A DNA stretch of 64,000 nucleotides from Ignavibacteriota bacterium (lineage in GTDB: Bacteria; Bacteroidota; Ignavibacteria; Ignavibacteriales; Ignavibacteriaceae): positions 3,767,001 to 3,831,000 of the forward strand of contig CP053446.1 in NCBI GenBank assembly GCA_013285405.1, in the 5' to 3' direction. Each line of letters opens with the position of its first letter. Within the stretch, counting starts at the first letter, position 1. This document shows positions 10,894 to 59,588 of the stretch, one piece after another. The notes under the pieces are model-generated. The model saw only the letters and a program-made list of their open reading frames with translations. It had not been told where the DNA came from and made no database searches. Position numbers and translations under genes: made by a program.

Positions 10894-13500
10894 TCACTTA
10901 ATTAAAATCATCTTTTTTGAACTAATATATTTCTCAGCGATTAGCTGATAAATATAAACACCACTTGAAAGATCACTTGCATCAAACTGAACTTCATACC
11001 TTCCTGCTTGCTGAATTTCATTAACTAACACTTTAACTCTTCTGCCAAGTATGTCATAAATTACAAGATTTACTAAAGTCCCTCCTTTGAAGGGATTTAG
11101 GGAGGCAGGCAGATCATACTTTATTGTTGAAATTGGATTGAAAGGGTTAGGATAATTTTGTAATAATAAAAACACTGAAGGACGTTCTATTATTACACAA
11201 ACAATTTTAGAGTATTCAAAACTTCCATCGTAATCAACCTGTTTAAGGCGATAAAAATAATATCCTGGTTCATTTGTAAAGTCTACAAAAGTGTAAGAAT
11301 GCTCTTCTGTTGTCGTCCCGTTGCCATGTACAAAACCGATGCGTTGCCAAACTTGGCTATCAGATTCACTTTTTTCTACCTCAAATCCTTTGTTATTAAT
11401 TTCACTTGCGGTTAACCAACTAAGAATCACTTTGTTATTAATTGTCTCGCTGTAAAAAGATATTAACTCAACCGGGACATAAGTTGAATCGTAATATTTC
11501 ATTATCAACCCTAATTCTCCAACGGCATAACCAGAACCAGAATTCAATAAATTTAATCCTGTTATTCTGACACCATTAAGTTCTGTGAACTCAAACCAGT
11601 TTTCTCCTCCGTCAGTAGAACGATAAGTCTTATATCCAATTATGAAAATAGTGCTGTCTTTGTATGTACTAAGTTTTGCAATACTAAAACCTGTGAGATT
11701 CTGATTCTGAACCCAGATAACTCCTCCATCTGTGGTTTTATAAAGTTTATTACTTTCAAGTAAAAAACCATTTTGATAATCTATGAAAAAAACATCCCTG
11801 GATTGCCCAATATTAATATTTAATTGCTCAATCCAGTTTTGTCCACCATCTTTTGTCTTAAAAGGCCTGGCATTCCCATTTGCAGTCCATCCATAAAGAG
11901 AATCAACAAAATAAATACTGCTAAATCCTATACTAAGTGGTGCATTCAACTGAGCAAACCAGTTATCTCCTCCATCTGTAGTTTTGAGTATCCCACCTCG
12001 GCTTGTCACCGCCCAACCAGTTGTTGGGTTAATAAAAAAGATTTTTCTTATTTGTCCAATCGTGTCAGAAAGTCCCGTTCTGTTTATCAGATTCCAGGTT
12101 ACTCCTGCATCAGTTGTCTTCAGTATTCTGCTCGGTGCTCCTCCAACAAAACCCGTCAAACTATCTGTAAAGGTTAAACAGGCTAGGGTTGTTGTAAATA
12201 AATTTATAGGGAAGTTGGGTATTCCTGACCAGCTTTCTCCTCCATCTGTTGTTTTATAAACAGGTCCTCCTATCCACGTTCCTCCTGCTATGTATCCTGT
12301 CATCTCGCTTGTAAAAAACACATCAGCAAAGTTGTCGTTTATTATCATACGTTTCCAGACATCATAACTTCCTTCTGCTTTCCATAATTTTAATCCTGTT
12401 CCTGTATTGTATCCTGTTCTTCCTTCTTCAATATATTGTAATTCATATTCTCCTATTCCTCCTGTTATTGTCCAGTTTTGTCCACGGTTTGTTGTCTTCC
12501 AAATTCCTATGTTACTCATTACCACGTAACCAGTATCAATACTTATATATTTAATACAGTTCACTTCACTTGTTGTCATCATTCCTCCGGTTACCCACGT
12601 GTTCCCACCATCACTGCTGTAAATGTTTTTTGCCGGATAACTTGTTCCTCCATAACCTGCTGCTGCTATGTGCAGCGAGTCTATTACATCAATACTAAAT
12701 AATGGATAAGCATCTCCGGCTTGTATTATTTCCCAGTTGGTTCCTCCATCGGTTGTTCTCAAAACTTTTCCGTTGGCTGCTATAAATCCATAATTCTCAT
12801 TCATAAAATCTATCCACCAATAATCAGATGTATAACCGGGTGTTTCTATATTTTGCCAAGTTTGTCCGCCGTCTGCTGTCTTGATAAGTGAGTTTGCATT
12901 TCCACAAGCCCAGCCAAGTGTATCGTTTATCATTTGCAATCCCCACAAGTCGCCGGTTACATTGCTTGTAACTTGTGTAAATGTTTCTCCGCCGTCCGTT
13001 GAGCGGAGTATAAGTCCACCAAATCCACTTGCAATTACAATCTGTCCGTCATAACTTCTTACTTTAAGTATTGGTGTTGTTGTGTTTGTTTCGCTTACTG
13101 TCCAACTTGTGCCTCCATCAGTACTCTTTATCAATGCACCGAGATCGCCAACTGCCCAACCTGTGCCTGCCTGTCCGGTAGGCAGGTCTTTATTTACAAA
13201 ATTAATTCCCAGATAATCTACTCTCGGTACTTTGGGATTTAACTCTGTCCAAACTCCTGTGCTTACTAAAGGAAATAATTTTCTCTTTTCTTCATCAAGA
13301 TTCTTTCCTAAATATTTTTGTCCGTAACTCTGGTAGTTTTCACTCAACTCAATTCCTCTTCGGTACTGGACAGGTTTTTCCCGCAAACGGGGCAGGTCTT
13401 TTGTTGTGTCTTGCTGTTGTGCAGTAATAAAACAATTAAACAATAAAACAATTATTAATGTTGTTTTTCCAGTAAGGAGGGATTTCATTGCGTTCAACAT
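10894..13500 (-). CDS. T9SS-secreted Ycf48-like beta-propeller protein, array copy 1
   Basis: An 868-residue secreted protein. A signal peptide (about 5-28) is followed by around a dozen Ycf48/BNR-like repeats with the TTDGGxNW signature, which should fold as one or two beta-propellers. Then comes a fibronectin-like segment beginning PVELISF and a C-terminal T9SS type A sorting domain (NYPNPFNP, then SSGVYIYQL, ending KKMILIK). Such domains send proteins through the type IX system to the cell surface. The N-terminal 400 residues are almost identical to copy 2, whereas the C-terminal half differs. Two palindromic elements lie in frame: seven codons (LPTGQAG) near residue 110 and eleven codons (ASLNPFKGGTL) in the sorting domain. 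Ligand or activity unknown. Confidence 0.88.
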   Translation of the reverse strand: MLNAMKSLLTGKTTLIIVLLFNCFITAQQQDTTKDLPRLREKPVQYRRGIELSENYQSYGQKYLGKNLDEEKRKLFPLVSTGVWTELNPKVPRVDYLGINFVNKDLPTGQAGTGWAVGDLGALIKSTDGGTSWTVSETNTTTPILKVRSYDGQIVIASGFGGLILRSTDGGETFTQVTSNVTGDLWGLQMINDTLGWACGNANSLIKTADGGQTWQNIETPGYTSDYWWIDFMNENYGFIAANGKVLRTTDGGTNWEIIQAGDAYPLFSIDVIDSLHIAAAGYGGTSYPAKNIYSSDGGNTWVTGGMMTTSEVNCIKYISIDTGYVVMSNIGIWKTTNRGQNWTITGGIGEYELQYIEEGRTGYNTGTGLKLWKAEGSYDVWKRMIINDNFADVFFTSEMTGYIAGGTWIGGPVYKTTDGGESWSGIPNFPINLFTTTLACLTFTDSLTGFVGGAPSRILKTTDAGVTWNLINRTGLSDTIGQIRKIFFINPTTGWAVTSRGGILKTTDGGDNWFAQLNAPLSIGFSSIYFVDSLYGWTANGNARPFKTKDGGQNWIEQLNINIGQSRDVFFIDYQNGFLLESNKLYKTTDGGVIWVQNQNLTGFSIAKLSTYKDSTIFIIGYKTYRSTDGGENWFEFTELNGVRITGLNLLNSGSGYAVGELGLIMKYYDSTYVPVELISFYSETINNKVILSWLTASEINNKGFEVEKSESDSQVWQRIGFVHGNGTTTEEHSYTFVDFTNEPGYYFYRLKQVDYDGSFEYSKIVCVIIERPSVFLLLQNYPNPFNPISTIKYDLPASLNPFKGGTLVNLVIYDILGRRVKVLVNEIQQAGRYEVQFDASDLSSGVYIYQLIAEKYISSKKMILIK
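11073..11105. repeat. 33-bp palindromic element in frame in the sorting domain of copy 1
   Basis: On the coding strand CTAAATCCCT, a 7-base loop, then AGGGACTTTAG can pair with one bulge. The same 33-bp element, differing at a few bases, occurs at 43134-43166 at the homologous place of another T9SS gene. It encodes ASLNPFKGGTL, is absent from array copies 2-4, and is a multiple of three. Confidence 0.75.
13166..13186. repeat. 21-bp palindromic element in frame (LPTGQAG), copy 1
   Basis: Arms CCTGCCT and AGGCAGG flank a CCGG-centred core; all 10 positions pair if G-T is allowed. On the coding strand it adds about seven codons (LPTGQAG) between D and TGWAVG, where the fifth T9SS protein has no insertion. 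Confidence 0.85.
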
Positions 13501-13560
13501 TTTCTCATCTCTTCATAATGTTATTTTTTAATTCCATTTTAAATTAATGAATTTCCCTAA

Positions 13561-13926
13561 CTAAGCTACAAATCTATTATCCAGAAAATATTTCCAGGCG
13601 TGTTTTGTTGGTGTAACTGCGTTGTTTGCATTGTTAACGCTGTCTTGTATTATATCTGTAACTTGCACAATTTTTACTCGGTGAGTCTCGCCGTCTATGA
13701 TTATGTCTTGGTCAAATAAACTGTCCAAGGTGACAATGTTAGATTCGGGAATGCCTCGGGCATTTTGGTAGTAATCTTTTACATCAATTGATGTTTGATC
13801 AAGTGAGTTATATACAACAAGAACACGATTGGCATCAGGAATCCCTGCAAAGGTTGGTGTTTGTGCTTCAGCTATATTAAAGCTGAAAAGAAAAAGTATA
13901 GAAAACAGTAAAAATGAATTTTTCAT
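13561..13926 (-). CDS. Small secreted protein, truncated TIGR03790-like N-terminal domain, copy 1
   Basis: About 121 residues from an ATG at 13924-13926, which has AGGGAG seven bases upstream; an in-frame start 12 codons earlier lacks this. A signal peptide (to about residue 21, AEAQ) is followed by NRVLVVYNSLDQTS, DVKDYYQNARGIPESNIV and a final HAWKYFLDNRF. The pattern resembles the start of TIGR03790-type proteins as I recall them, which are several hundred residues long, so this is either a domain fragment or a stand-alone mini-protein. It begins about 50 bases after the stop of copy 2 and precedes copy 1. Its protein is identical to the copy at 16585-16950. Function unknown. Confidence 0.65.
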   Translation of the reverse strand: MKNSFLLFSILFLFSFNIAEAQTPTFAGIPDANRVLVVYNSLDQTSIDVKDYYQNARGIPESNIVTLDSLFDQDIIIDGETHRVKIVQVTDIIQDSVNNANNAVTPTKHAWKYFLDNRFVA

Positions 13927-13977
13927 TTTGCACTCCCTTTTTTTAAGTGATGAAATCCGCAATGAGAGCGGAGTTAA

Positions 13978-16524
13978 TTATTTGAGTAAAACCAACTTCT
14001 TAACATCATAAAATCCTTTGTCTGTTGTCATTTTATAAAAGTAAACTCCAGAAGCAAAATCGTTCAATTTAACCTCTAGATTATAAATTCCTTTTTCTTT
14101 TTCCTCATTTAATATTTGCTTTACAAGTTCTCCATTAATTGAATAAAGGTTGATTTCAACGAAAGATTTTTGGGGAAGAGTAAAAGAAATATTTGCTATT
14201 GGATTGGCAGGATTGGGGTAATTCTGAGAAAGATAGAAGTTGAGAGAAGATATTTCTATCTCTATTATGGTTGAATATTCAAAAGTTCCATTAAAGTCAA
14301 TTTGCTTTATCTGATAATAAATTTTGCTGCCGTATATTTTATGGTCAATAAATGAATATTCACTTTTTTCAGTTGTTGTGCCAGCGCCTCTAACAAATCC
14401 TATTTTGACCCAGTTATTATTGTCGTAAGATCGAAATAATTCAAATCCGAGGTTATTTATTTCGGTAACGGTAATCCAACTTAAATGAATTTTATTATCA
14501 GTATACTCCGCAGAGAAATCTATTAGTTCAACTGGAATATAGGTTGTATCGTTATAACTTAAAACCAAACCTAAGCTGCCAACCGCATAGCCTTGTATGT
14601 TAGTTGGTGCATAGAAACTATTAATACCTGTTGGTACATCATTGGTAAATTCATACCAGGTATTACTGTAATCGTTTGTTATATAGTATTGCGAAAAACC
14701 TATAATAACCCAATGAATAGGATCTGGGAAAAAATAAAATTTACGGGCACCTATAACCTCTGGAATTCCTGTCCAAGTCAAACCTCCATCAATTGTTTTA
14801 AACAAAGAATTGTTTATTGAAGAATATTTTGCAAACCAACCGCTATCCGTATTAGTAAAGTAAACGTCATCTGAATTCCAAATAATTGTATTTGTTTGTT
14901 GAATCCAGTTATTACCTCCATCAGTTGTCTTATAAGGTCTTCCACCTGATACCCAACCATATAAAGTATCGGAAAAATTTATACTAGTAAAATGAACGCT
15001 CGCTGGAGCTGTAAACTGTGTAAACCAGTTTTCACCTCTGTCTGTAGATTTATAAATTACATTACTTCGTACTGCCCAGCCAATTTCCTGGTTTACAAAA
15101 AATATTTTTCCTGCTCCGCCCTGTCCTCCATTAGGAACGTACCACGTTACTCCACCATCAGTAGTTTTATTAATTTGGTAGCTTCCTACAAAACCTGTAA
15201 GGCTATCCAGAAATAATAATTCGTTACCACTTGGTGCTCCATTTACAACATTCCAACTGATTCCGCTATCGTTAGTTTTGTATAAACTGCCATATTCGTA
15301 GCTTGGACTTACAACAAATCCTTTCTGTTCGCTTGTAAAAAACACATCAGCAAAGTTGTCGTTTATTATCATACGTTTCCAGACATCATAACTTCCTTCT
15401 GCTTTCCATAATTTTAATCCTGTTCCTGTATTGTATCCTGTTCTTCCTTCTTCAATATATTGTAATTCATATTCTCCTATTCCTCCTGTTATTGTCCAGT
15501 TTTGTCCACGGTTTGTTGTCTTCCAAATTCCTATGTTACTCATTACTACATAACCAGTATCAATACTAATATATTTAATACAGTTCACTTCACTTGTTGT
15601 CATCATTCCTCCGGTTACCCACGTGTTCCCACCATCACTGCTGTAAATGTTTTTTGCCGGATAACTTGTTCCTCCATAACCTGCTGCTGCTATGTGCAGC
15701 GAGTCTATTACATCAATACTAAATAATGGATAAGCATCTCCGGCTTGTATTATTTCCCAGTTGGTTCCTCCATCGGTTGTTCTCAAAACTTTTCCGTTGG
15801 CTGCTATAAATCCATAATTCTCATTCATAAAATCTATCCACCAATAATCAGATGTATAACCGGGTGTTTCTATATTTTGCCAAGTTTGTCCGCCGTCTGC
15901 TGTCTTGATAAGTGAGTTTGCATTTCCACAAGCCCAGCCAAGTGTATCGTTTATCATTTGCAATCCCCACAAGTCGCCGGTTACATTGCTTGTAACTTGT
16001 GTAAATGTTTCTCCGCCGTCCGTTGAGCGGAGTATAAGTCCACCAAATCCACTTGCAATTACAATCTGTCCGTCATAACTTCTTACTTTAAGTATTGGTG
16101 TTGTTGTGTTTGTTTCGCTTACTGTCCAACTTGTGCCTCCATCAGTACTCTTTATCAATGCACCGAGATCGCCAACTGCCCAACCTGTGCCTGCCTGTCC
16201 GGTAGGCAGGTCTTTATTTACAAAATTAATTCCCAGATAATCTACTCTCGGTACTTTGGGATTTAACTCTGTCCAAACTCCTGTGCTTACTAAAGGAAAT
16301 AATTTTCTCTTTTCTTCATCAAGATTCTTTCCTAAATATTTTTGTCCGTAACTCTGGTAGTTTTCACTCAACTCAATTCCTCTTCGGTGCTGGACAGGTT
16401 TTTCCCGCAAACGGGGCAGGTCTTTTGTTGTGTCTTGCTGTTGTGCAGTAATAAAACAATTAAACAATAAAACAATTATTAATGTTGTTTTTCCAGTAAG
16501 GAGGGATTTCATTGCGTTCAACAT
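13978..16524 (-). CDS. T9SS-secreted Ycf48-like beta-propeller protein, array copy 2 (mosaic)
   Basis: An 848-residue protein with the same plan as copy 1: signal peptide, TTDGGxNW propeller repeats, a PVELIDF fibronectin-like segment and a T9SS sorting domain (NYPNPANP to KKLVLLK). It is a mosaic. The N-terminal 400 residues match copy 1 with a single substitution noticed (H for Y), while the last 80 residues match copy 3, and the middle is unique. It carries the in-frame LPTGQAG palindrome. The small secreted gene follows its stop by about 50 bases, suggesting a shared transcript. Likely surface-exposed; ligand unknown. Confidence 0.88.
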   Translation of the reverse strand: MLNAMKSLLTGKTTLIIVLLFNCFITAQQQDTTKDLPRLREKPVQHRRGIELSENYQSYGQKYLGKNLDEEKRKLFPLVSTGVWTELNPKVPRVDYLGINFVNKDLPTGQAGTGWAVGDLGALIKSTDGGTSWTVSETNTTTPILKVRSYDGQIVIASGFGGLILRSTDGGETFTQVTSNVTGDLWGLQMINDTLGWACGNANSLIKTADGGQTWQNIETPGYTSDYWWIDFMNENYGFIAANGKVLRTTDGGTNWEIIQAGDAYPLFSIDVIDSLHIAAAGYGGTSYPAKNIYSSDGGNTWVTGGMMTTSEVNCIKYISIDTGYVVMSNIGIWKTTNRGQNWTITGGIGEYELQYIEEGRTGYNTGTGLKLWKAEGSYDVWKRMIINDNFADVFFTSEQKGFVVSPSYEYGSLYKTNDSGISWNVVNGAPSGNELLFLDSLTGFVGSYQINKTTDGGVTWYVPNGGQGGAGKIFFVNQEIGWAVRSNVIYKSTDRGENWFTQFTAPASVHFTSINFSDTLYGWVSGGRPYKTTDGGNNWIQQTNTIIWNSDDVYFTNTDSGWFAKYSSINNSLFKTIDGGLTWTGIPEVIGARKFYFFPDPIHWVIIGFSQYYITNDYSNTWYEFTNDVPTGINSFYAPTNIQGYAVGSLGLVLSYNDTTYIPVELIDFSAEYTDNKIHLSWITVTEINNLGFELFRSYDNNNWVKIGFVRGAGTTTEKSEYSFIDHKIYGSKIYYQIKQIDFNGTFEYSTIIEIEISSLNFYLSQNYPNPANPIANISFTLPQKSFVEINLYSINGELVKQILNEEKEKGIYNLEVKLNDFASGVYFYKMTTDKGFYDVKKLVLLK
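16190..16210. repeat. 21-bp palindromic element in frame (LPTGQAG), copy 2
   Basis: Identical to the element at 13166-13186 and at the same codon position of array copy 2; it lies within the 1.9-kb repeat, so it was probably copied with it. Confidence 0.85.
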
Positions 16525-16584
16525 TTTCTCATCTCTTCATAATGTTATTTTTTAATTCCATTTTAAATTAATGAATTTCCCTAA

Positions 16585-16950
16585 CTAAGCTACAAATCTA
16601 TTATCCAGAAAATATTTCCAGGCGTGTTTTGTTGGTGTAACTGCGTTGTTTGCATTGTTAACGCTGTCTTGTATTATATCTGTAACTTGCACAATTTTTA
16701 CTCGGTGAGTCTCGCCGTCTATGATTATGTCTTGGTCAAATAAACTGTCCAAGGTGACAATGTTAGATTCGGGAATGCCTCGGGCATTTTGGTAGTAATC
16801 TTTTACATCAATTGATGTTTGATCAAGTGAGTTATATACAACAAGAACACGATTGGCATCAGGAATCCCTGCAAAGGTTGGTGTTTGTGCTTCAGCTATA
16901 TTAAAGCTGAAAAGAAAAAGTATAGAAAACAGTAAAAATGAATTTTTCAT
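16585..16950 (-). CDS. Small secreted protein, truncated TIGR03790-like N-terminal domain, copy 2
   Basis: Same 121-residue product as 13561-13926. The start at 16948-16950 is preceded by AAGGAG, which changes to AGGGAG in copy 1 by a single base in the leader. It begins about 50 bases after the stop of array copy 3 and ends 60 bases before copy 2. That two identical small frames stay open suggests either recent duplication or selection; the sequence cannot distinguish them. Confidence 0.65.
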   Translation of the reverse strand: MKNSFLLFSILFLFSFNIAEAQTPTFAGIPDANRVLVVYNSLDQTSIDVKDYYQNARGIPESNIVTLDSLFDQDIIIDGETHRVKIVQVTDIIQDSVNNANNAVTPTKHAWKYFLDNRFVA

Positions 16951-17001
16951 TTTGCACTCCTTTTTTTTAAGTGATGAAATCCGCAATGAGAGCGGAGTTA
17001 A

Positions 17002-19494
17002 TTATTTGAGTAAAACCAACTTCTTAACATCATAAAATCCTTTGTCTGTTGTCATTTTATAAAAGTAAACTCCAGAAGCAAAATCGTTCAATTTAACCTC
17101 TAGATTATAAATTCCTTTTTCTTTTTCCTCATTTAATATTTGCTTTACAAGTTCTCCATTAATTGAATAAAGGTTGATTTCAACGAAAGATTTTTGGGGA
17201 AGAGTAAAAGAAATATTTGCTATTGGATTGGCAGGATTGGGAAAATTTTGAAATAGTTCATACTCTAAAGGAACTGAAAAATAAATTTCTATTTCTTCGC
17301 TATAATTATATGTACCGTCAAAGTCTGTTTGCTTCAGTCTGTAACAATAAACTCCTGACTCAGTTAAAATATCTTTGTATGAATAGTAATTAATTTCCGT
17401 AGAGTTTCCTTTACCTTCAATAAAATCTAAATCAATCCATTCCTGCTCATTCAGTTTTTTTCTTTGTATATAAAAACCTCTGTTATTAGTTTCGGTAGCA
17501 GTAGTCCATTGAAGGTTGGTTTCATTTTCGTTTAACCAACCTTCAAAGTTTATTAACTCTACTGGAACTGTTTCATCATAGTATTTAAAGATTAAACCCG
17601 TGTTGCCAACCAGGAATCCAGAATTAACAGCAAATAAGTCGATTGTCATCCTCCATCCTTGATTGGCTAGTTCAGGGAATTCAGTCCAGTTAATACCCGC
17701 ATTTGTTGTCCTATATACCCTATCACCAGTAATGAATATATTCTCTGAATCAAAATAACCAAATCGTCCAGATCCGAAACCAGTTAGTAATGAATCTAAA
17801 GTCCAATTTATACCTCCATCAATAGTCTTATAAAGCTTATTCCAGTCTAATAACCATCCATTAAGTGTATCTTTAAAATATACGTCATCTGTTTGATAAA
17901 AGTTTAAATTTGTTTGTTCAATCCAATTCTCTCCTCCATCTGTTGTTTTAAATGGTCTTCTATTAAGAATAGAAGCCCAGCCATATAAGGAATCTATAAA
18001 ATGAATACTTGAAAAATATCCAGCACCTGGTGAATTTAATTGCACGAACCAGTTTTCTCCCCTGTCTGTTGTTTTCATAATTTGTTTACTCTTAATTGCC
18101 CAGCTAATTAATTGAGTTTGGGAGAAAAATTTTATGATTGCTCCAATAGTATCTGTTAATCCGGTTATATTTGTTAAATACCAGTTTTCTCCGCTATCAA
18201 TTGTCTTATATATTTTCGGTCTTGATACACCTATAAAACCATTTGAACTGTCAAGAAAATTCATTGCATCCATATACAAAATTTGATTGTAAGGGAATGT
18301 CAGTAAGGTATCTAAGGTGTATCCTCCATCGTTTGTCGTGTATATAAGGTCCTTACTGTTTATTATACCCTTATACTCATCACTAAAAAAAATATTAAGT
18401 AAATCAGCATTTACAATTGTTCTACTCCAGTTTTCACCTTCATTTGTGGTTTTTGCAAGAAGCATTTTACCTCCGGTAACAAAGCCCTTTTCTTCTGTTG
18501 GGAAAGATAAGTTTGTTGTCAATGCTTTTGAACTTCCTAGATTAAGATCAATAATTTCATACCAACTAACACCACCGTTAGTAGATTTATAGAAGCCGCC
18601 TGAAGATGCTAAACATCCTTTTACTTCATCCATAAATTTTATTTTATTTATTTCCGGTGCACTTATTCCTCCTCCTCCTGCATACAACCAATTATTACCG
18701 CCGTCGGAAGTATAAACAACCTTTCCAGCAAAGCCCCCTGCAGATGCTCTGAGTGTATCAATAGCATAAATTGTGTAGAGACTTCTCGTATCTCCAGCTA
18801 TTTGTGTTATCCAGCTTACTCCACCATCTGTTGTTTTCAACACAATACCCGAACTTGTGCACATATAACCAAATGATGTGTCAATGAAACTTACATCCCA
18901 GTATGGTGCAGTTGGATATGGCATAGATTGTTGCACCCAGATTAATCCGCCATCAGTTGTTTTTAAAGCAGTTCCTCTTTCTCCTACCATCCATCCAATC
19001 TCATCGGTTATCATCTGCAGATTCCAGATGTTTCTTGTCGTCGGGCTTGACAACTGGATCCACGTTTCTCCTGCATCTTCTGAGATTATAATTATTCCTC
19101 CATCGCCTGCTGCTATAACTCTTTGTCCGTTATTTACTGAAGCAACTGTTCTTAATGTATTTTCAACTCCGCTTTCATACCATATCCACTTCTGTCCTCC
19201 ATTCGTTGTTTTAATTACTGCACCGCCTTCGCCTACTGCCCAGCCGGTGCCTGCCTGTCCGGTAGGCAGGTCTGCATTTGCAAAATCAATTCCCCAATAA
19301 TCCACTCTTGGTATTAATGGATGAACTTCAGTCCATACCCCGGTAGATTGAAGTGGGAAGAGAGAATAGTCACGAGTTAATCCAGGCTGTACAGATCGTT
19401 CCTCTTGCTGGGCATAGTTCATCGAAGGTAATAATAGTAAGACAAGCAGCAGTGAGAGGAGAAAATTAAATTTCAGGGATTTTTTGTTAAACAT
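17002..19494 (-). CDS. T9SS-secreted Ycf48-like beta-propeller protein, array copy 3
   Basis: An 830-residue protein: signal peptide (MFNKKSLKFNFLLSLLLVLL, cleaved near NYAQQ), around a dozen TTDGGxxW repeats, a PVELINFEGW fibronectin-like segment and a type A sorting domain. The N-terminal 330 residues are nearly identical to copy 4, not to copies 1 and 2, while the C-terminal 80 residues match copy 2. It carries the in-frame LPTGQAG element. A small secreted gene follows. Confidence 0.88.
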   Translation of the reverse strand: MFNKKSLKFNFLLSLLLVLLLLPSMNYAQQEERSVQPGLTRDYSLFPLQSTGVWTEVHPLIPRVDYWGIDFANADLPTGQAGTGWAVGEGGAVIKTTNGGQKWIWYESGVENTLRTVASVNNGQRVIAAGDGGIIIISEDAGETWIQLSSPTTRNIWNLQMITDEIGWMVGERGTALKTTDGGLIWVQQSMPYPTAPYWDVSFIDTSFGYMCTSSGIVLKTTDGGVSWITQIAGDTRSLYTIYAIDTLRASAGGFAGKVVYTSDGGNNWLYAGGGGISAPEINKIKFMDEVKGCLASSGGFYKSTNGGVSWYEIIDLNLGSSKALTTNLSFPTEEKGFVTGGKMLLAKTTNEGENWSRTIVNADLLNIFFSDEYKGIINSKDLIYTTNDGGYTLDTLLTFPYNQILYMDAMNFLDSSNGFIGVSRPKIYKTIDSGENWYLTNITGLTDTIGAIIKFFSQTQLISWAIKSKQIMKTTDRGENWFVQLNSPGAGYFSSIHFIDSLYGWASILNRRPFKTTDGGENWIEQTNLNFYQTDDVYFKDTLNGWLLDWNKLYKTIDGGINWTLDSLLTGFGSGRFGYFDSENIFITGDRVYRTTNAGINWTEFPELANQGWRMTIDLFAVNSGFLVGNTGLIFKYYDETVPVELINFEGWLNENETNLQWTTATETNNRGFYIQRKKLNEQEWIDLDFIEGKGNSTEINYYSYKDILTESGVYCYRLKQTDFDGTYNYSEEIEIYFSVPLEYELFQNFPNPANPIANISFTLPQKSFVEINLYSINGELVKQILNEEKEKGIYNLEVKLNDFASGVYFYKMTTDKGFYDVKKLVLLK
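18431..19494. repeat. About 1.06-kb direct repeat shared by array copies 3 and 4, unit A
   Basis: The 5' third of copy 3 matches 21409-22472 at an offset of 2978 bp, with scattered substitutions and a more divergent signal-peptide region. It extends about 18 bases upstream of the start codon. Ends are approximate. Confidence 0.75.
19250..19270. repeat. 21-bp palindromic element in frame (LPTGQAG), copy 3
   Basis: Same 21 bases as at 13166-13186, at the homologous codon position of array copy 3 although the surrounding sequence is quite different from copies 1 and 2. This suggests insertion before the two subfamilies split, or spread by conversion. Confidence 0.85.
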
Positions 19495-19575
19495 ATAAAT
19501 ACCCGTGATAATTGCTGATTTAATTTTAAGAAATTAATTTTTGAAACGCAAATAATGATGTTATAGTAACTTCTT

Positions 19576-19591
19576 GAGACTTCTGAAAAAT
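19576..19591. repeat. 16-bp dispersed repeat GAGACTTCTGAAAAAT, copy 1
   Basis: Exact 16-base match to 30046-30061, both in non-coding DNA. It lies in the 153-bp gap (19495-19647) between array copy 3 and the third small gene, where nothing else was recognised. Confidence 0.6.
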
Positions 19592-19647
19592 CAGGTTATA
19601 AAGCCAAAAATACTTTGAATTAATTTTTTTCTTTTTTTTATGAGTTT

Positions 19648-19980
19648 TTATTCAACGATTATATCAGCTATTACTTCTTTAACATAGTGCCAGCCCCCAT
19701 CTCCCTGTAATGTGGTGTCAACTATCTCTTCATTATTCCAACGGAATTCACAGCCGTAAGAAGCAGGATCAGACAATGTGATCGGAACAATATTTATCGG
19801 ATCTGGGATACTTCTTTTCTCAACATAGTAATTTTTTATTTTAAGTGAAGTTGAATCACCATTCATTGGGTTGGTATAAACTACTAAAACTCTTTCAGGG
19901 CTTGGAATTTCATCGGTAGTTTGAGCAAAAATTAATATAGATAGGAGTAATATCTGAGAACAAGTAAATAAAATTTTCAT
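19648..19980 (-). CDS. Small secreted protein, truncated TIGR03790-like N-terminal domain, copy 3 (divergent)
   Basis: A 110-residue protein with a signal peptide (about 1-19, LIFAQ) and the same core pattern as the other two small genes: ERVLVVYTNPMNGDS, KIKNYYVEKRSIPDPINIVPI. The rest diverges and ends GWHYVKEVIADIIVE. A GGGAGAGG stretch lies just before its ATG. It starts 11 bases after the stop of array copy 4, so the two are very likely co-transcribed. Activity unknown. Confidence 0.65.
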   Translation of the reverse strand: MKILFTCSQILLLSILIFAQTTDEIPSPERVLVVYTNPMNGDSTSLKIKNYYVEKRSIPDPINIVPITLSDPASYGCEFRWNNEEIVDTTLQGDGGWHYVKEVIADIIVE

Positions 19981-19991
19981 AACCTCTCCCG

Positions 19992-22472
19992 TTATTTGAT
20001 GAATAATAATTTTTTTGTTTGTGAAAAACCCGTAGAGCTTTTAAGCGTATAGAAATAAACACCCGTGGATAATTCTCTCAAATCAATTTCTTTTGTATAT
20101 ATGCCAGCCTGAGTGTTCTCGTAAATCAGAGTTGAAACTTTTTCACCTTTGATATCATACAGATACATTTCAATAAAAGATTCCAGCGGGACGATATATT
20201 TTATTATGGTGGTTGGATTAGTTGGGTTCGGGTAATTCTGAAAGAGTTCAAAATTATTTAAGTAAATTTTTATTTCAATAATATTAGAATATTTAAATAA
20301 ACCATTGTAATCAATTTGTTTAAGTCTATAAAAGTACATTTGATTTTCAATATTGGTATCTTCAAACGAATAATTTTGTCTTTCTGATGTTGTGCCTTTA
20401 CCAGAAACAGTACCTATAACTTCCCAATGAACTTTGTTTTTTGAGCGTTGTATTTCAAATCCCATATTGTTTTTTTCAGTTGCTGATTGCCAGCTTAATA
20501 ATACATTCAAATTTCTTAACTCTGCTTTGAAGCCTGTTAATTCAACTGGAACTATTGTTGTGTCCAAATAATTCATAACAAGACCTCTTACTCCTATCGG
20601 GACACAAAAATAATTATAAGGTGCATAAAGATTTAAAAAAGAAGTACCTACATCCGACATTATATTAATCCAGGTATTTCCTGTGTCTATGCTTTCATAG
20701 ATATTCCAAGTAATTAGAAAGTGGGTATTACTAATTAATTTGAATCGCGAAGTGTAGGCTGAGATTTGAGTATCCTGATACCAAGTAATTCCTCCATCAT
20801 TAGTCCTATAAAGCTTATTCTCGCTTAATAACCATCCGTTAAGCGTATCTTTAAAATATACATCATTAGTCTGATAAAAGTTTAAATTTGTTTGTTCAGT
20901 CCAATTTTCTCCTCCATCTGTTGTTTTAAATGGTCTTCTACTTAATACTGATATCCAACCATATAAAGAATCAACAAAATGAATACCGGAAAAATATCCG
21001 GCTCCTGGCATATTTAATTGCACAAACCAATTCTCTCCCCCGTCATTTGTTTTCATTATGCGTTTATTGCTAATTGCCCAACCTATATCCTTTGTCAAAA
21101 AGAAAAACTTAATTATTACCCAGGATGAATCCACTAACCCTGTTATATTGGTTCTATGCCAGCCTTGCCCTCCATTTGTGGTTTTGTAAATTCTTGCAGG
21201 CAATGTTCCGATGAAGCCGTTCAGACTATCTGTAAATGTCATTCCTTCCATAGAAAAAATTTCATTGTACGGAAAAGTTAAAATAGTATCTAAAGATTGT
21301 CCTCCGTCATTTGTTGTGTAAATTAGGTCGGTACTGTTTATAAACCCATTTTGTTCATCCTTAAAGTAAACATTAAATAAATCTGCATTCACTATTGTTC
21401 TTCGCCAGCTTTCACCTTCATTTGTGGTTTTTGCAAGAAGCATTTTACCTCCGGTAACAAAACCTTTTTCTTCTGTTGGGAGAGATAAGTTTGTTGTAAA
21501 TACTGAGGAAAATTCCTGATTAAGATCATTATTTTCATACCAACTAACACCTCCGTTAGTAGATTTATAGAAGCCGCCTGAAGATGCTAAAAATCCTTTT
21601 ACTTCATCCATAAATTTTATTTTATTTATTTCTGGTGCACTTATTCCTCCTCCTCCTGCATTTAACCAGTTAATACCTCCATCCGTTGTATAAACAACCT
21701 TTCCTGCGAAGCCCCCTGCAGATGCTCTGAGTGTATCAATAGCATAAATTGTGTAAAGACTTCTTGTATCTCCAGCTATTTGTGTTATCCAGCTTACTCC
21801 ACCATCTGTTGTTTTCAACACAATACCCGAACTTGTGCACATATAACCAAATGATGTGTCAATGAAACTTACATCCCAGTATGGTGCAGTTGGATATGGC
21901 ATAGATTGTTGCACCCAGATTAATCCGCCATCAGTTGTTTTTAAAGCAGTTCCTCTTTCTCCTACCATCCATCCAATCTCATCGGTTATCATCTGCAGAT
22001 TCCAGATGTTTCTTGTCGTCGGGCTTGACAACTGGATCCACGTTTCTCCTGCATCTTCTGAGATTATAATTATTCCTCCATCGCCTGCTGCTATAACTCT
22101 TTGTCCGTTATTTACTGAAGCAACTGTTCTCAGTGTGTTCTCAACTCCGCTTTCATACCATATCCACTTCTGTCCTCCATTCGTTGTTTTAATTACTGCA
22201 CCGCCTTCGCCTACTGCCCAGCCGGTGCCTGCCTGTCCGGTAGGCAGGTCTGCATTTGCAAAATCAATTCCCCAATAATCCACTCTTGGTATTAATGGAT
22301 GAACTTCTGTCCATACCCCGGTGGATTTTAAAGGGAAAAGAGATTTATCCCGAGTTAATTGTGGTTGTAAGGATCGTTCTTCCTGCTGGGCATAGTCCAA
22401 GGAAGCAAACAATAGTAAGACAAGCAGCAGTGAGAGGAGAAAATTAAATTTCAGGGATTTTTTGTTAAACAT
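19992..22472 (-). CDS. T9SS-secreted Ycf48-like beta-propeller protein, array copy 4
   Basis: An 826-residue protein and the first gene of the minus-strand array. It has a signal peptide, TTDGGxxW propeller repeats, a PVELTGFKAEL fibronectin-like segment, and a T9SS sorting domain (NYPNPTNP, STGVYFYTL, ending KKLLFIK). The N-terminal third nearly equals copy 3 and the C-terminal part is unlike the other three. It carries the in-frame LPTGQAG element. Array transcription probably begins in the 366-bp region upstream. Confidence 0.88.
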   Translation of the reverse strand: MFNKKSLKFNFLLSLLLVLLLFASLDYAQQEERSLQPQLTRDKSLFPLKSTGVWTEVHPLIPRVDYWGIDFANADLPTGQAGTGWAVGEGGAVIKTTNGGQKWIWYESGVENTLRTVASVNNGQRVIAAGDGGIIIISEDAGETWIQLSSPTTRNIWNLQMITDEIGWMVGERGTALKTTDGGLIWVQQSMPYPTAPYWDVSFIDTSFGYMCTSSGIVLKTTDGGVSWITQIAGDTRSLYTIYAIDTLRASAGGFAGKVVYTTDGGINWLNAGGGGISAPEINKIKFMDEVKGFLASSGGFYKSTNGGVSWYENNDLNQEFSSVFTTNLSLPTEEKGFVTGGKMLLAKTTNEGESWRRTIVNADLFNVYFKDEQNGFINSTDLIYTTNDGGQSLDTILTFPYNEIFSMEGMTFTDSLNGFIGTLPARIYKTTNGGQGWHRTNITGLVDSSWVIIKFFFLTKDIGWAISNKRIMKTNDGGENWFVQLNMPGAGYFSGIHFVDSLYGWISVLSRRPFKTTDGGENWTEQTNLNFYQTNDVYFKDTLNGWLLSENKLYRTNDGGITWYQDTQISAYTSRFKLISNTHFLITWNIYESIDTGNTWINIMSDVGTSFLNLYAPYNYFCVPIGVRGLVMNYLDTTIVPVELTGFKAELRNLNVLLSWQSATEKNNMGFEIQRSKNKVHWEVIGTVSGKGTTSERQNYSFEDTNIENQMYFYRLKQIDYNGLFKYSNIIEIKIYLNNFELFQNYPNPTNPTTIIKYIVPLESFIEMYLYDIKGEKVSTLIYENTQAGIYTKEIDLRELSTGVYFYTLKSSTGFSQTKKLLFIK
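21409..22472. repeat. About 1.06-kb direct repeat shared by array copies 3 and 4, unit B
   Basis: Partner of 18431-19494 at an offset of 2978 bp. The match is interrupted by small clusters of differences, so it looks older than the 1.9-kb repeat or partly re-diversified. Confidence 0.75.
22228..22248. repeat. 21-bp palindromic element in frame (LPTGQAG), copy 4
   Basis: Same 21 bases and codon position as in the other three array genes. Confidence 0.85.
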
Positions 22473-30069: not shown

Positions 30070-30117
30070 GTCATATTGAACGACCTGCCTGCCGGCAAGA
30101 CAGGAGTGAAATATCTT
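30070..30117. repeat. Nested dispersed repeat with a CCTGCC palindrome in its centre
   Basis: Outer part GTCATATTGAAC ... GTGAAATATCTT resembles the family GTCATTCYGA ... GAATCT seen at 59526-59553. A CCTGCC...ACAGG palindrome of the type found in the array genes sits in its middle (30084-30104). The rest of the gap 29867-30154 holds nothing recognised. Confidence 0.55.
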
Positions 30118-41773: not shown

Positions 41774-43345
41774 ATGCAAACACTTAAAATATTTCTTCTG
41801 GTTTTTTTGCTTTCAATTAGTGTATCTGCACAGTGGTATCAGCAAAACAGTAATGTGACCTTAAATCTCAATTCAATATTTTTCATCAATGTAAATCTTG
41901 GCTGGGCAGTCGGCGATGAAGGCATTGTTCTAAAAACTACTGATGGTGGAAATAATTGGATTGTTCAGACCGGTTTAACAACTGATAACCTCTACTCAGT
42001 TTATTTCTTAAACAACAATACCGGATGGATTGTAGGAGAGGATGTAAGCATTATGAAATCAACCGATGGTGGTAGTAATTGGTTTTTACAAATAGCTAAT
42101 CCTCCTTTTCCAGTTGATTTGCATTCAGTACAGTTTCTGGATTTAAATAATGGATGGGCAGTCGGAAACTATATGTATTCAAGCACAGGTTATGATAGTT
42201 ATATAATTCAAACTACTAATGGGGGTGCATCCTGGCAGGACAATTATGGATTTATGGATGAAAAACTATTTTCTATTTTCTTTGTGAATAGTAGTCTGGG
42301 TTTTAGCTCTGGCTCAGAAGTTTTCAAGACAACAGATACCGGCTTAAACTGGAATCCGGTGTTTAACTCAGCTTTTATGGATGAATTTTATGCAGTTTTT
42401 TTCATCAATTCCAATACTGGATGGATTGCAGGGAAGAATGCACAATGGTCGAAGGGCTTGATTTACAAAACAACCGACAGCGGACTTAACTGGTCTTTAC
42501 TTAGAAGTGATACATTAAAAACTTACACATCTGTTTTCTTTGCCGATGCTAACAACGGATGGGTAACTGGATGGGCAGGAAATATTTTATATTCTTCAAA
42601 CGGTGGAACAAACTGGTCAATGCAGGTTAGTGGAACAACTTCTAATCTTAATTCAATATTTTTCGTCGATAATTCAGTCGGATGGGCTGCTGGTAGTAAT
42701 GGAACAATTCTTAAAACAAATAATGGTGGAACACCAGTGGAATTAATTTCTTTTGCTGCTAATCATATTAAAAATGATAATTTAATAGAATTAACCTGGT
42801 CAACCGCAACAGAAACAAATAACTCTGGTTTTGAGATTCATCGCGGAGTTTATCCTGCAAACAGCGGGACTCAGAATGACAACAACGAGTGGAAGAAAAT
42901 AGGATTTGTTCCCGGACACGGAACAACAACGGAAACACAGCATTACTCATTTACTGATAATGATGTGAAGCCGGGCAAATGTCAATACAAACTAAAGCAA
43001 ATTGACTACGACGGAACATTTGAGTATTCACAAATTGTAGAAGTAGAAATTCCATTCGTTAATGAGTTTTCACTTTCACAAAACTACCCCAACCCGTTTA
43101 ACCCAACAACAAAAATAAAATTTACAATACCGGCCTCCCTAAATCCCTCCAAAGTAGGGACTTTAGTGCAATTAAAGGTATTTGATATTTTGGGAAAAGA
43201 GATTGCATTATTGATTAATGAGGAAAAGCAATCCGGAACGTATGAAATAGAATTTGATGGCAGTAGTCTTTCTAGTGGAGTTTACCTTTACAGATTAACT
43301 GCAGGTAATTTTAATGAAACTAAGAAATTTGTTTTATTAAAATGA
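41774..43345 (+). CDS. T9SS-secreted Ycf48-like beta-propeller protein (fifth paralog)
   Basis: A 523-residue secreted protein: signal peptide (to about residue 21, VSAQ), six or seven repeats of the GWAVG...TTDGGNNW type forming one propeller, a PVELISFAAN fibronectin-like segment and a type A T9SS sorting domain (NYPNPFNP, SSGVYLYRL, KKFVLLK). Unlike the array genes, it has no LPTGQAG insertion in its first repeat. It does have the 33-bp element (ASLNPSKVGTL) in its sorting domain and a likely repeat insertion near residue 360 (RGVYPANSGTQND). Probably displayed on the cell surface; activity unknown. Confidence 0.9.
   Translation: MQTLKIFLLVFLLSISVSAQWYQQNSNVTLNLNSIFFINVNLGWAVGDEGIVLKTTDGGNNWIVQTGLTTDNLYSVYFLNNNTGWIVGEDVSIMKSTDGGSNWFLQIANPPFPVDLHSVQFLDLNNGWAVGNYMYSSTGYDSYIIQTTNGGASWQDNYGFMDEKLFSIFFVNSSLGFSSGSEVFKTTDTGLNWNPVFNSAFMDEFYAVFFINSNTGWIAGKNAQWSKGLIYKTTDSGLNWSLLRSDTLKTYTSVFFADANNGWVTGWAGNILYSSNGGTNWSMQVSGTTSNLNSIFFVDNSVGWAAGSNGTILKTNNGGTPVELISFAANHIKNDNLIELTWSTATETNNSGFEIHRGVYPANSGTQNDNNEWKKIGFVPGHGTTTETQHYSFTDNDVKPGKCQYKLKQIDYDGTFEYSQIVEVEIPFVNEFSLSQNYPNPFNPTTKIKFTIPASLNPSKVGTLVQLKVFDILGKEIALLINEEKQSGTYEIEFDGSSLSSGVYLYRLTAGNFNETKKFVLLK
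42832..42880. repeat. Probable GTCATTCTGA...GAATCTCA dispersed repeat, in frame
   Basis: Read on the minus strand this begins GTCATTCTGAGTCCCGC and ends GATGAATCTCA, matching the ends of the repeat at 59526-59553 (GTCATTCCGAA ... GGAATCTTT). In the protein it encodes EIHRGVYPANSGTQND, whose second half looks foreign to the fibronectin-like segment of other T9SS proteins here. Confidence 0.5.
43134..43166. repeat. 33-bp palindromic element in frame in the sorting domain
   Basis: Same 33-bp element as at 11073-11105 in reverse orientation with respect to the window but the same orientation to its gene. Arms CTAAATCCCT and AGGGACTTTAG. It encodes ASLNPSKVGTL between the strand IKFTIP and VQLKVFDILG. 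Confidence 0.75.
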
Positions 43346-59439: not shown

Positions 59440-59500
59440 AACCTGAACCTGCCTGACGGCAGACAGGCTCGCTTCTCCGAAGGAGTCCTTTGGACAGGTT
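59440..59500. repeat. Composite dispersed repeat in the 59378-59742 gap
   Basis: Outer arms AACCTG and CAGGTT enclose a CCTGCC...GACAGG palindrome (59448-59467), then CTCCGAAGGAG and TCCTTTGGA hairpins (59474-59493). The palindrome is of the array-gene type and the two hairpins match those at 41590-41629. Confidence 0.65.
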
Positions 59501-59525: not shown

Positions 59526-59588
59526 AAAGATTCCGAAACAAGTTCGGAATGACAGTCGTGCAACACCCTGGTCTGACGGCAAGGCAGG
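59526..59588. repeat. Hairpin ATTCCGAA-ACAAG-TTCGGAAT and a second CCTG...GGCAGG palindrome
   Basis: 59530-59550 is a perfect eight-base stem with loop ACAAG, continuing GAC (the GTCATTCYGA family on the other strand). At 59567-59588 a further palindrome CCTGGTCTGACGGC...AAGGCAGG is related to the 21-bp element. The rest of the 365-bp gap shows no gene. Confidence 0.6.

Follow-up and report, generated by a model that had tools for sequence, protein, structure and literature searches.

The window, a 64,000-nucleotide stretch of the single-contig, 3.86 Mb genome of an Ignavibacteriota bacterium, contains four genes in tandem whose products combine YCF48/BNR propeller domains with a C-terminal T9SS signal (Pfam), each gene holding one identical copy of the palindrome CCTGCCTGTCCGGTAGGCAGG (Table 1). 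With 2 mismatches allowed, shuffles of the window gave a random expectation of 0.05 such matches. The genes read on the minus strand and contain D-LPTGQAG-TGWAVG, the in-frame insertion that a preliminary description of this DNA had stated. Its further claims that a fifth, distant paralog is uninserted and that three related palindromes stand between genes also proved correct, the three relatives all being degenerate.

Table 1. Palindromic elements and their host genes in the window, numbered from its first letter
Feature	Position	Strand	Sequence or remark
Palindromic element, copy 1	13166..13186		CCTGCCTGTCCGGTAGGCAGG; LPTGQAG encoded on minus strand; ortholog in sister species G002 without element
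Palindromic element, copy 2	16190..16210		identical to CCTGCCTGTCCGGTAGGCAGG
Palindromic element, copy 3	19250..19270		identical to CCTGCCTGTCCGGTAGGCAGG
Palindromic element, copy 4	22228..22248		identical to CCTGCCTGTCCGGTAGGCAGG
T9SS-tailed YCF48/BNR propeller protein with LPTGQAG, clade A	10894..13500	-	Pfam PSII_BNR + Por_Secre_tail
Paralog, clade A, mosaic	13978..16524	-	C-terminal tail is that of the gene at 17002
Paralog with LPTGQAG, clade B	17002..19494	-
Paralog with LPTGQAG, clade B	19992..22472	-
Distant paralog without insertion	41774..43345	+	INVNLGWAVG at that place
Degenerate intergenic copy, 1 arm mismatch	30084..30104		nested in GTCATATTGAACGA/AGTGAAATATCTTG repeat
Degenerate 20-bp intergenic copy, 16/20 positions self-complementary	59448..59467		nested in GTCAACCTGAA...-type repeat
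Weak degenerate intergenic copy, 14/22 positions self-complementary	59567..59588

Because the four window genes form two pairs of tandem paralogs, their copies do not represent four independent insertions. Two more carriers of the BNR family lie elsewhere in the genome (C1:2310497 and C1:2652080), giving a clade A (10894, 13978 and 2652080) and a clade B (17002, 19992 and 2310497). The clades are ~41–49% identical to each other, yet the insertion is common to both. It is missing from the clade A ortholog in the sister species G002 and from paralog C of the same genome, and the orthologs in G002 and G001 lack LPTGQAG. The gene at 13978 is a mosaic, its N-terminal half being that of the gene at 10894 and its C-terminal tail identical to that of the gene at 17002; judged by sequence, the mosaic tandem T9SS/BNR genes (13978–19494) point to gene conversion. 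Between clades A and B no conversion tract was seen, identity not being raised beyond the level of the non-carrier G002. The shared insertion may reflect short-tract gene conversion, repeated insertion or loss, among which we prefer conversion.

The preliminary description had placed the encoded residues in a likely surface loop, and a modest AlphaFold2 model of a protein of the window family (residues 1–300, mean pLDDT 70) supports that placement. The insert occupies residues 106–112, between predicted strands at 96–102 and 113–118, with pLDDT below 50 at residues 105–109. The model is consistent with LPTGQAG forming a flexible, low-confidence loop that joins two strands.

We searched the whole genome for the palindrome, a check that had been proposed for it. 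Requiring 7-bp arms around a 7-bp centre gave 52 copies, allowing a centre of 4–7 bases raised this to 64 exact-arm copies, and a reversed control pattern gave 0 matches. The element follows the pattern CCTGCCT-n5-7-AGGCAGG with a total length of 19, 20 or 21 bp; its centres vary, CCGG being the commonest, and as single-stranded DNA it folds into a hairpin. Only six of the 64 copies belong to the BNR family (four in the window and two elsewhere), and the large excess outside it lies in ~16 unrelated genes, in several reading phases, or between genes. Among the hit genes is PurL, identified by matches to solved structures, whose insertion falls in a stretch that is shorter in 3viu, a homologous solved structure. 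Others, which we take by eye from their sequences to be a helicase, a penicillin-binding protein (PBP), an ABC-F ATPase and a penicillin-acylase-like gene, include two separate insertions in the last. Larger repeats enclose many of the intergenic copies. Hairpin repeats of the GTCATTCCGAACTTGTTTCGGAATC and GTCATATTGAACGAAGTGAAATATCTTG types, longer than the element, contain the palindrome within their loop or close to it in this genome, and the two multiply together.

Orthologs gathered with a chimeric protein query, from five genus members and others, provided the empty sites. In alignments with sister species, 13 independent coding sites show a net gap of 21 bp where the palindrome stands. 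No target duplication was seen at these sites; the copies are thus true insertions. Examples include the window family (GTAAATAAAGA^TACCGG) and the sites at 1392990 (TTTAAA^GATTGA) and 462044 (GCAATTGA^TTACAA). The palindromes of purL and the ABC-F gene measure 20 bp, one extra base completing 21. With duplicates collapsed, the net insertion was 21 bp for 17/17 coding copies, of which 12–13 are backed by empty sites, and for 9/18 independent non-coding copies (Fisher p=0.001), so that every coding copy passed the multiple-of-three check. Every in-gene insertion adds seven residues and leaves the frame intact, which makes this a tiny mobile element that alters proteins. Coding copies (17/35) were depleted relative to a coding density of 88% (p=1.6e-8), as expected if most coding insertions are purged.

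Coding 21-mers also favoured one reading phase. The LPxGQAG phase was used by 12/15 in this genome and by 11/13 in other genomes, a set hand-filtered for element-like centres that leaves aside the noisier coding calls on viral contigs; pooled across phyla this amounts to 23/28 (p=1.5e-7). The element sequence contains no stop codon in any phase. Insertion preference, not selection, could contribute to the phase bias too.

We also found preferences at the target. The base at -1 was A in 53% of pooled flanks against a background of 33% in this genome, and this preference was weaker in other genomes. Stem-loop targets were enriched ~5–10 fold, with 3/35 sites against 0.9% in this genome (p=0.004) and 5/108 against 0.5% in other genomes for 8-bp stems (p=0.0004). 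Such insertions include GTCATTCCGAA^CTTGTTTCGGAATC and self-insertions into the element's own centre (CCTGCCTGCCG^GCAGGCAG). This excess fits entry into the loops of single-stranded hairpins without proving it.

The palindrome is abundant but patchy well beyond this genome. Members of the genus carry 64, 29, 17, 9, 0 and 0 copies, and the element recurs in Patescibacteria, Omnitrophota, Planctomycetota, Desulfobacterota and other Bacteroidota, as well as in viral contigs. Among the matches listed, at least one copy was present in 30/118 Bacteroidota genomes, most with few, and in 46/145 Patescibacteria genomes, with a maximum in the latter of at least 49 copies per 0.9 Mb; the control pattern gave two chance matches in all among the matches listed for Patescibacteria. 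Carriers include Uhrbacteria (69 copies), Syntrophaceae (55), Planctomycetota (25), Wolfebacteria (21) and Omnitrophota (17). Cultured isolates also carry it, namely Winogradskyella echinorum, Flavobacteriaceae R38 and Arenibacter sp. P308M17, the last with the exact 21-mer of the window. Two Bacteroidota genomes (G232 and G325) have dense palindrome clusters in which most copies lie within a larger intergenic repeat; by eye, their gene neighbourhoods looked ordinary and no candidate autonomous element was recognised there.

Several other explanations can be set against these data. The identity of LPTGQAG in six paralogs of one genome would be explained if it were an ancestral functional motif of the BNR family and the palindrome a coincidence of codons, but homologs lack LPTGQAG, among them the G002 and G001 orthologs and paralog C, and the same DNA turns up between genes and, in several phases, within unrelated genes, leaving this idea scarcely credible. 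There is next to no chance that the palindrome is an assembly or library artefact such as a linker: although many carriers are metagenome-assembled genomes, the element is present in cultured isolates, its centre varies, paralogs share its position and coding copies are in frame. Selection for a DNA or RNA role (a terminator, or a protein-binding or uptake site), or hitchhiking in larger repeats, would account for the conservation of the sequence across phyla and for the many intergenic copies that multiply with the repeats around them. Hitchhiking fails to explain why precise 21-bp insertions, matched by clean empty sites, occur at unrelated coding positions, relatives without any palindrome argue against a conserved need, and the window had no Rfam match; we regard such a role as quite improbable.

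A less remote alternative, though still an unlikely one, is that the palindrome is a REP element moved by a resident REP-associated tyrosine transposase (RAYT) in an ordinary REP/REPIN system. We sought Y1_Tnp genes in 59 relatives and 15 distant carriers and inspected the flanks of a subset of them. In the 59 relatives, Y1_Tnp gene number correlated weakly with palindrome copies (Spearman 0.37, p=0.004, kinship ignored), both palindrome-free genus members lack Y1_Tnp, and a palindrome lies within ~500 bp of some Y1 genes. However, where hairpins were visible beside the inspected Y1_Tnp genes they were of different sequence, and the CCTGCC palindromes near Y1_Tnp are sporadic and look like insertions into the Y1 flanks. 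The hairpin foot lacks a GTAG or CGTC tag, copies are mainly single and not inverted pairs, and 3/15 cross-phylum carriers, with 21, 16 and 32 copies in genomes that may be incomplete, showed no Y1_Tnp. Given the different flanking hairpins and the carriers in which no Y1_Tnp was detected, we assigned no RAYT. Many Y1_Tnp genes in the relatives are flanked by hairpins of their own (such as CCACGAGCTTTAGCTCGTGG and CCTCGTAGAGG), like TIR-associated tyrosine transposases.

Among known systems, MITEs resemble the window element in being non-autonomous and palindromic, but the window element is much shorter, and at its empty sites nothing except the element is missing from the alignment, without target-site duplication. 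Cyanobacterial small dispersed repeats (SDRs) are mobile repeats of ~21–27 bp that occur both in genes and in RNA genes. They are probably closest in size and behaviour; their sequence and host range probably differ. Work on SDRs (Elhai et al. 2008) is cited in PMC3116915. REPs of the GTAG/CGTC superfamilies are multi-copy palindromes of 20–40 bp, found across phyla and at times intragenic or nested in other palindromes; their defining feature is an unpaired tetranucleotide, GTAG or CGTC, at one of the ends (PMC3733652). The window element is likewise a short, multi-copy, cross-phylum palindrome that is sometimes intragenic or nested, but it has no GTAG/CGTC consensus at positions -1 to -5 and does not flank the subset of Y1 genes examined. 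It also differs from REPINs, whose unit is a pair of inverted REPs, since its copies in this genome stand mostly alone and, where two lie close together, a larger unit has been duplicated in tandem.

The preliminary description had likened the element to the Rickettsia palindromic elements (RPEs), which are dispersed palindromes of ~150 bp inserted in frame into unrelated genes, housekeeping genes included (PMC10969869), and of which RPE-4/6 correspond to CGTC-tagged REPs (PMC3733652). The likeness stands for a dispersed palindrome that inserts in frame into unrelated ORFs, some of them housekeeping, as borne out by the genome-wide copies, the empty sites and the multiple-of-three test. Neither result that the preliminary description would have taken as refuting came about: homologs lack LPTGQAG, and copies are in large excess outside the BNR family. 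It does not extend to identity, because the window element has 19–21 bp, encodes 7 residues, bears no CGTC end tag and occurs in many phyla, not in Rickettsia alone. Without the length, tag and RAYT linkage that define RPEs and intragenic REPs, it belongs to neither despite like behaviour. The kind of element is already known from RPEs, intragenic REPs and SDR-like behaviour; the variant described here is new, and neither its sequence nor its peptide had a match in the literature searched.

We consider it very probable that the palindrome is a non-autonomous mobile hairpin of 19–21 bp that inserts precisely, that its in-gene survivors are those of net 21 bp, and that the window copies derive from one ancestral event. 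This mobile hairpin would insert precisely and leave no target-site duplication; insertions would often lie 3' of an A, and some would enter the loop of a different hairpin. Within genes, survival would be limited to net 21-bp insertions, mostly reading LPxGQAG or LPAGKAG, where a flexible loop is tolerated. In the window, a single insertion into an ancestral BNR/T9SS gene would have been followed by tandem duplication and probably gene conversion. Movement may proceed via single-stranded DNA through a trans-acting nuclease. Weighing against this reading, the Y1_Tnp searches and the cluster neighbourhoods yielded no mobilising gene, Y1_Tnp genes of relatives have different flanking hairpins, and three carriers showed no Y1_Tnp; clades A and B share an insertion that the G002 ortholog and paralog C lack, and the palindrome itself has only 20 bp in PurL and ABC-F. 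We put forward more tentatively, as a possibility short of an even chance, that at least five or six phyla share the near-identical 20–21 bp hairpin through horizontal transfer, and that it constitutes a specifically recognised mobile unit, moved by a single-strand nuclease and serving as a widespread source of 7-residue loops.

If the mobile-hairpin reading is right, few known mobile DNA units would be as small, and comparison with sister species gives clean pairs of sites before and after insertion, including in housekeeping genes such as purL. The mechanism by which a 21-bp hairpin moves, and the frequency with which transposition gives working proteins new loops, could be studied directly on this element, and its carriers include Patescibacteria and Omnitrophota, phyla where such elements are little studied.

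Two single copies in other genomes illustrate further contexts. One, from a WWE3 genome, interrupts a tRNA-like sequence (GTAGCTCAGTGGTAGA^GCAGCGGC, L158:2109-2160); ARAGORN calls no tRNA at the site, and we did not accept the copy as an insertion into a tRNA. In the sister species G002 a palindrome lies inside a GATTCTTCG..CAGAATGAC repeat that is itself within the coding region of a T9SS gene, forming a nested in-frame insertion.
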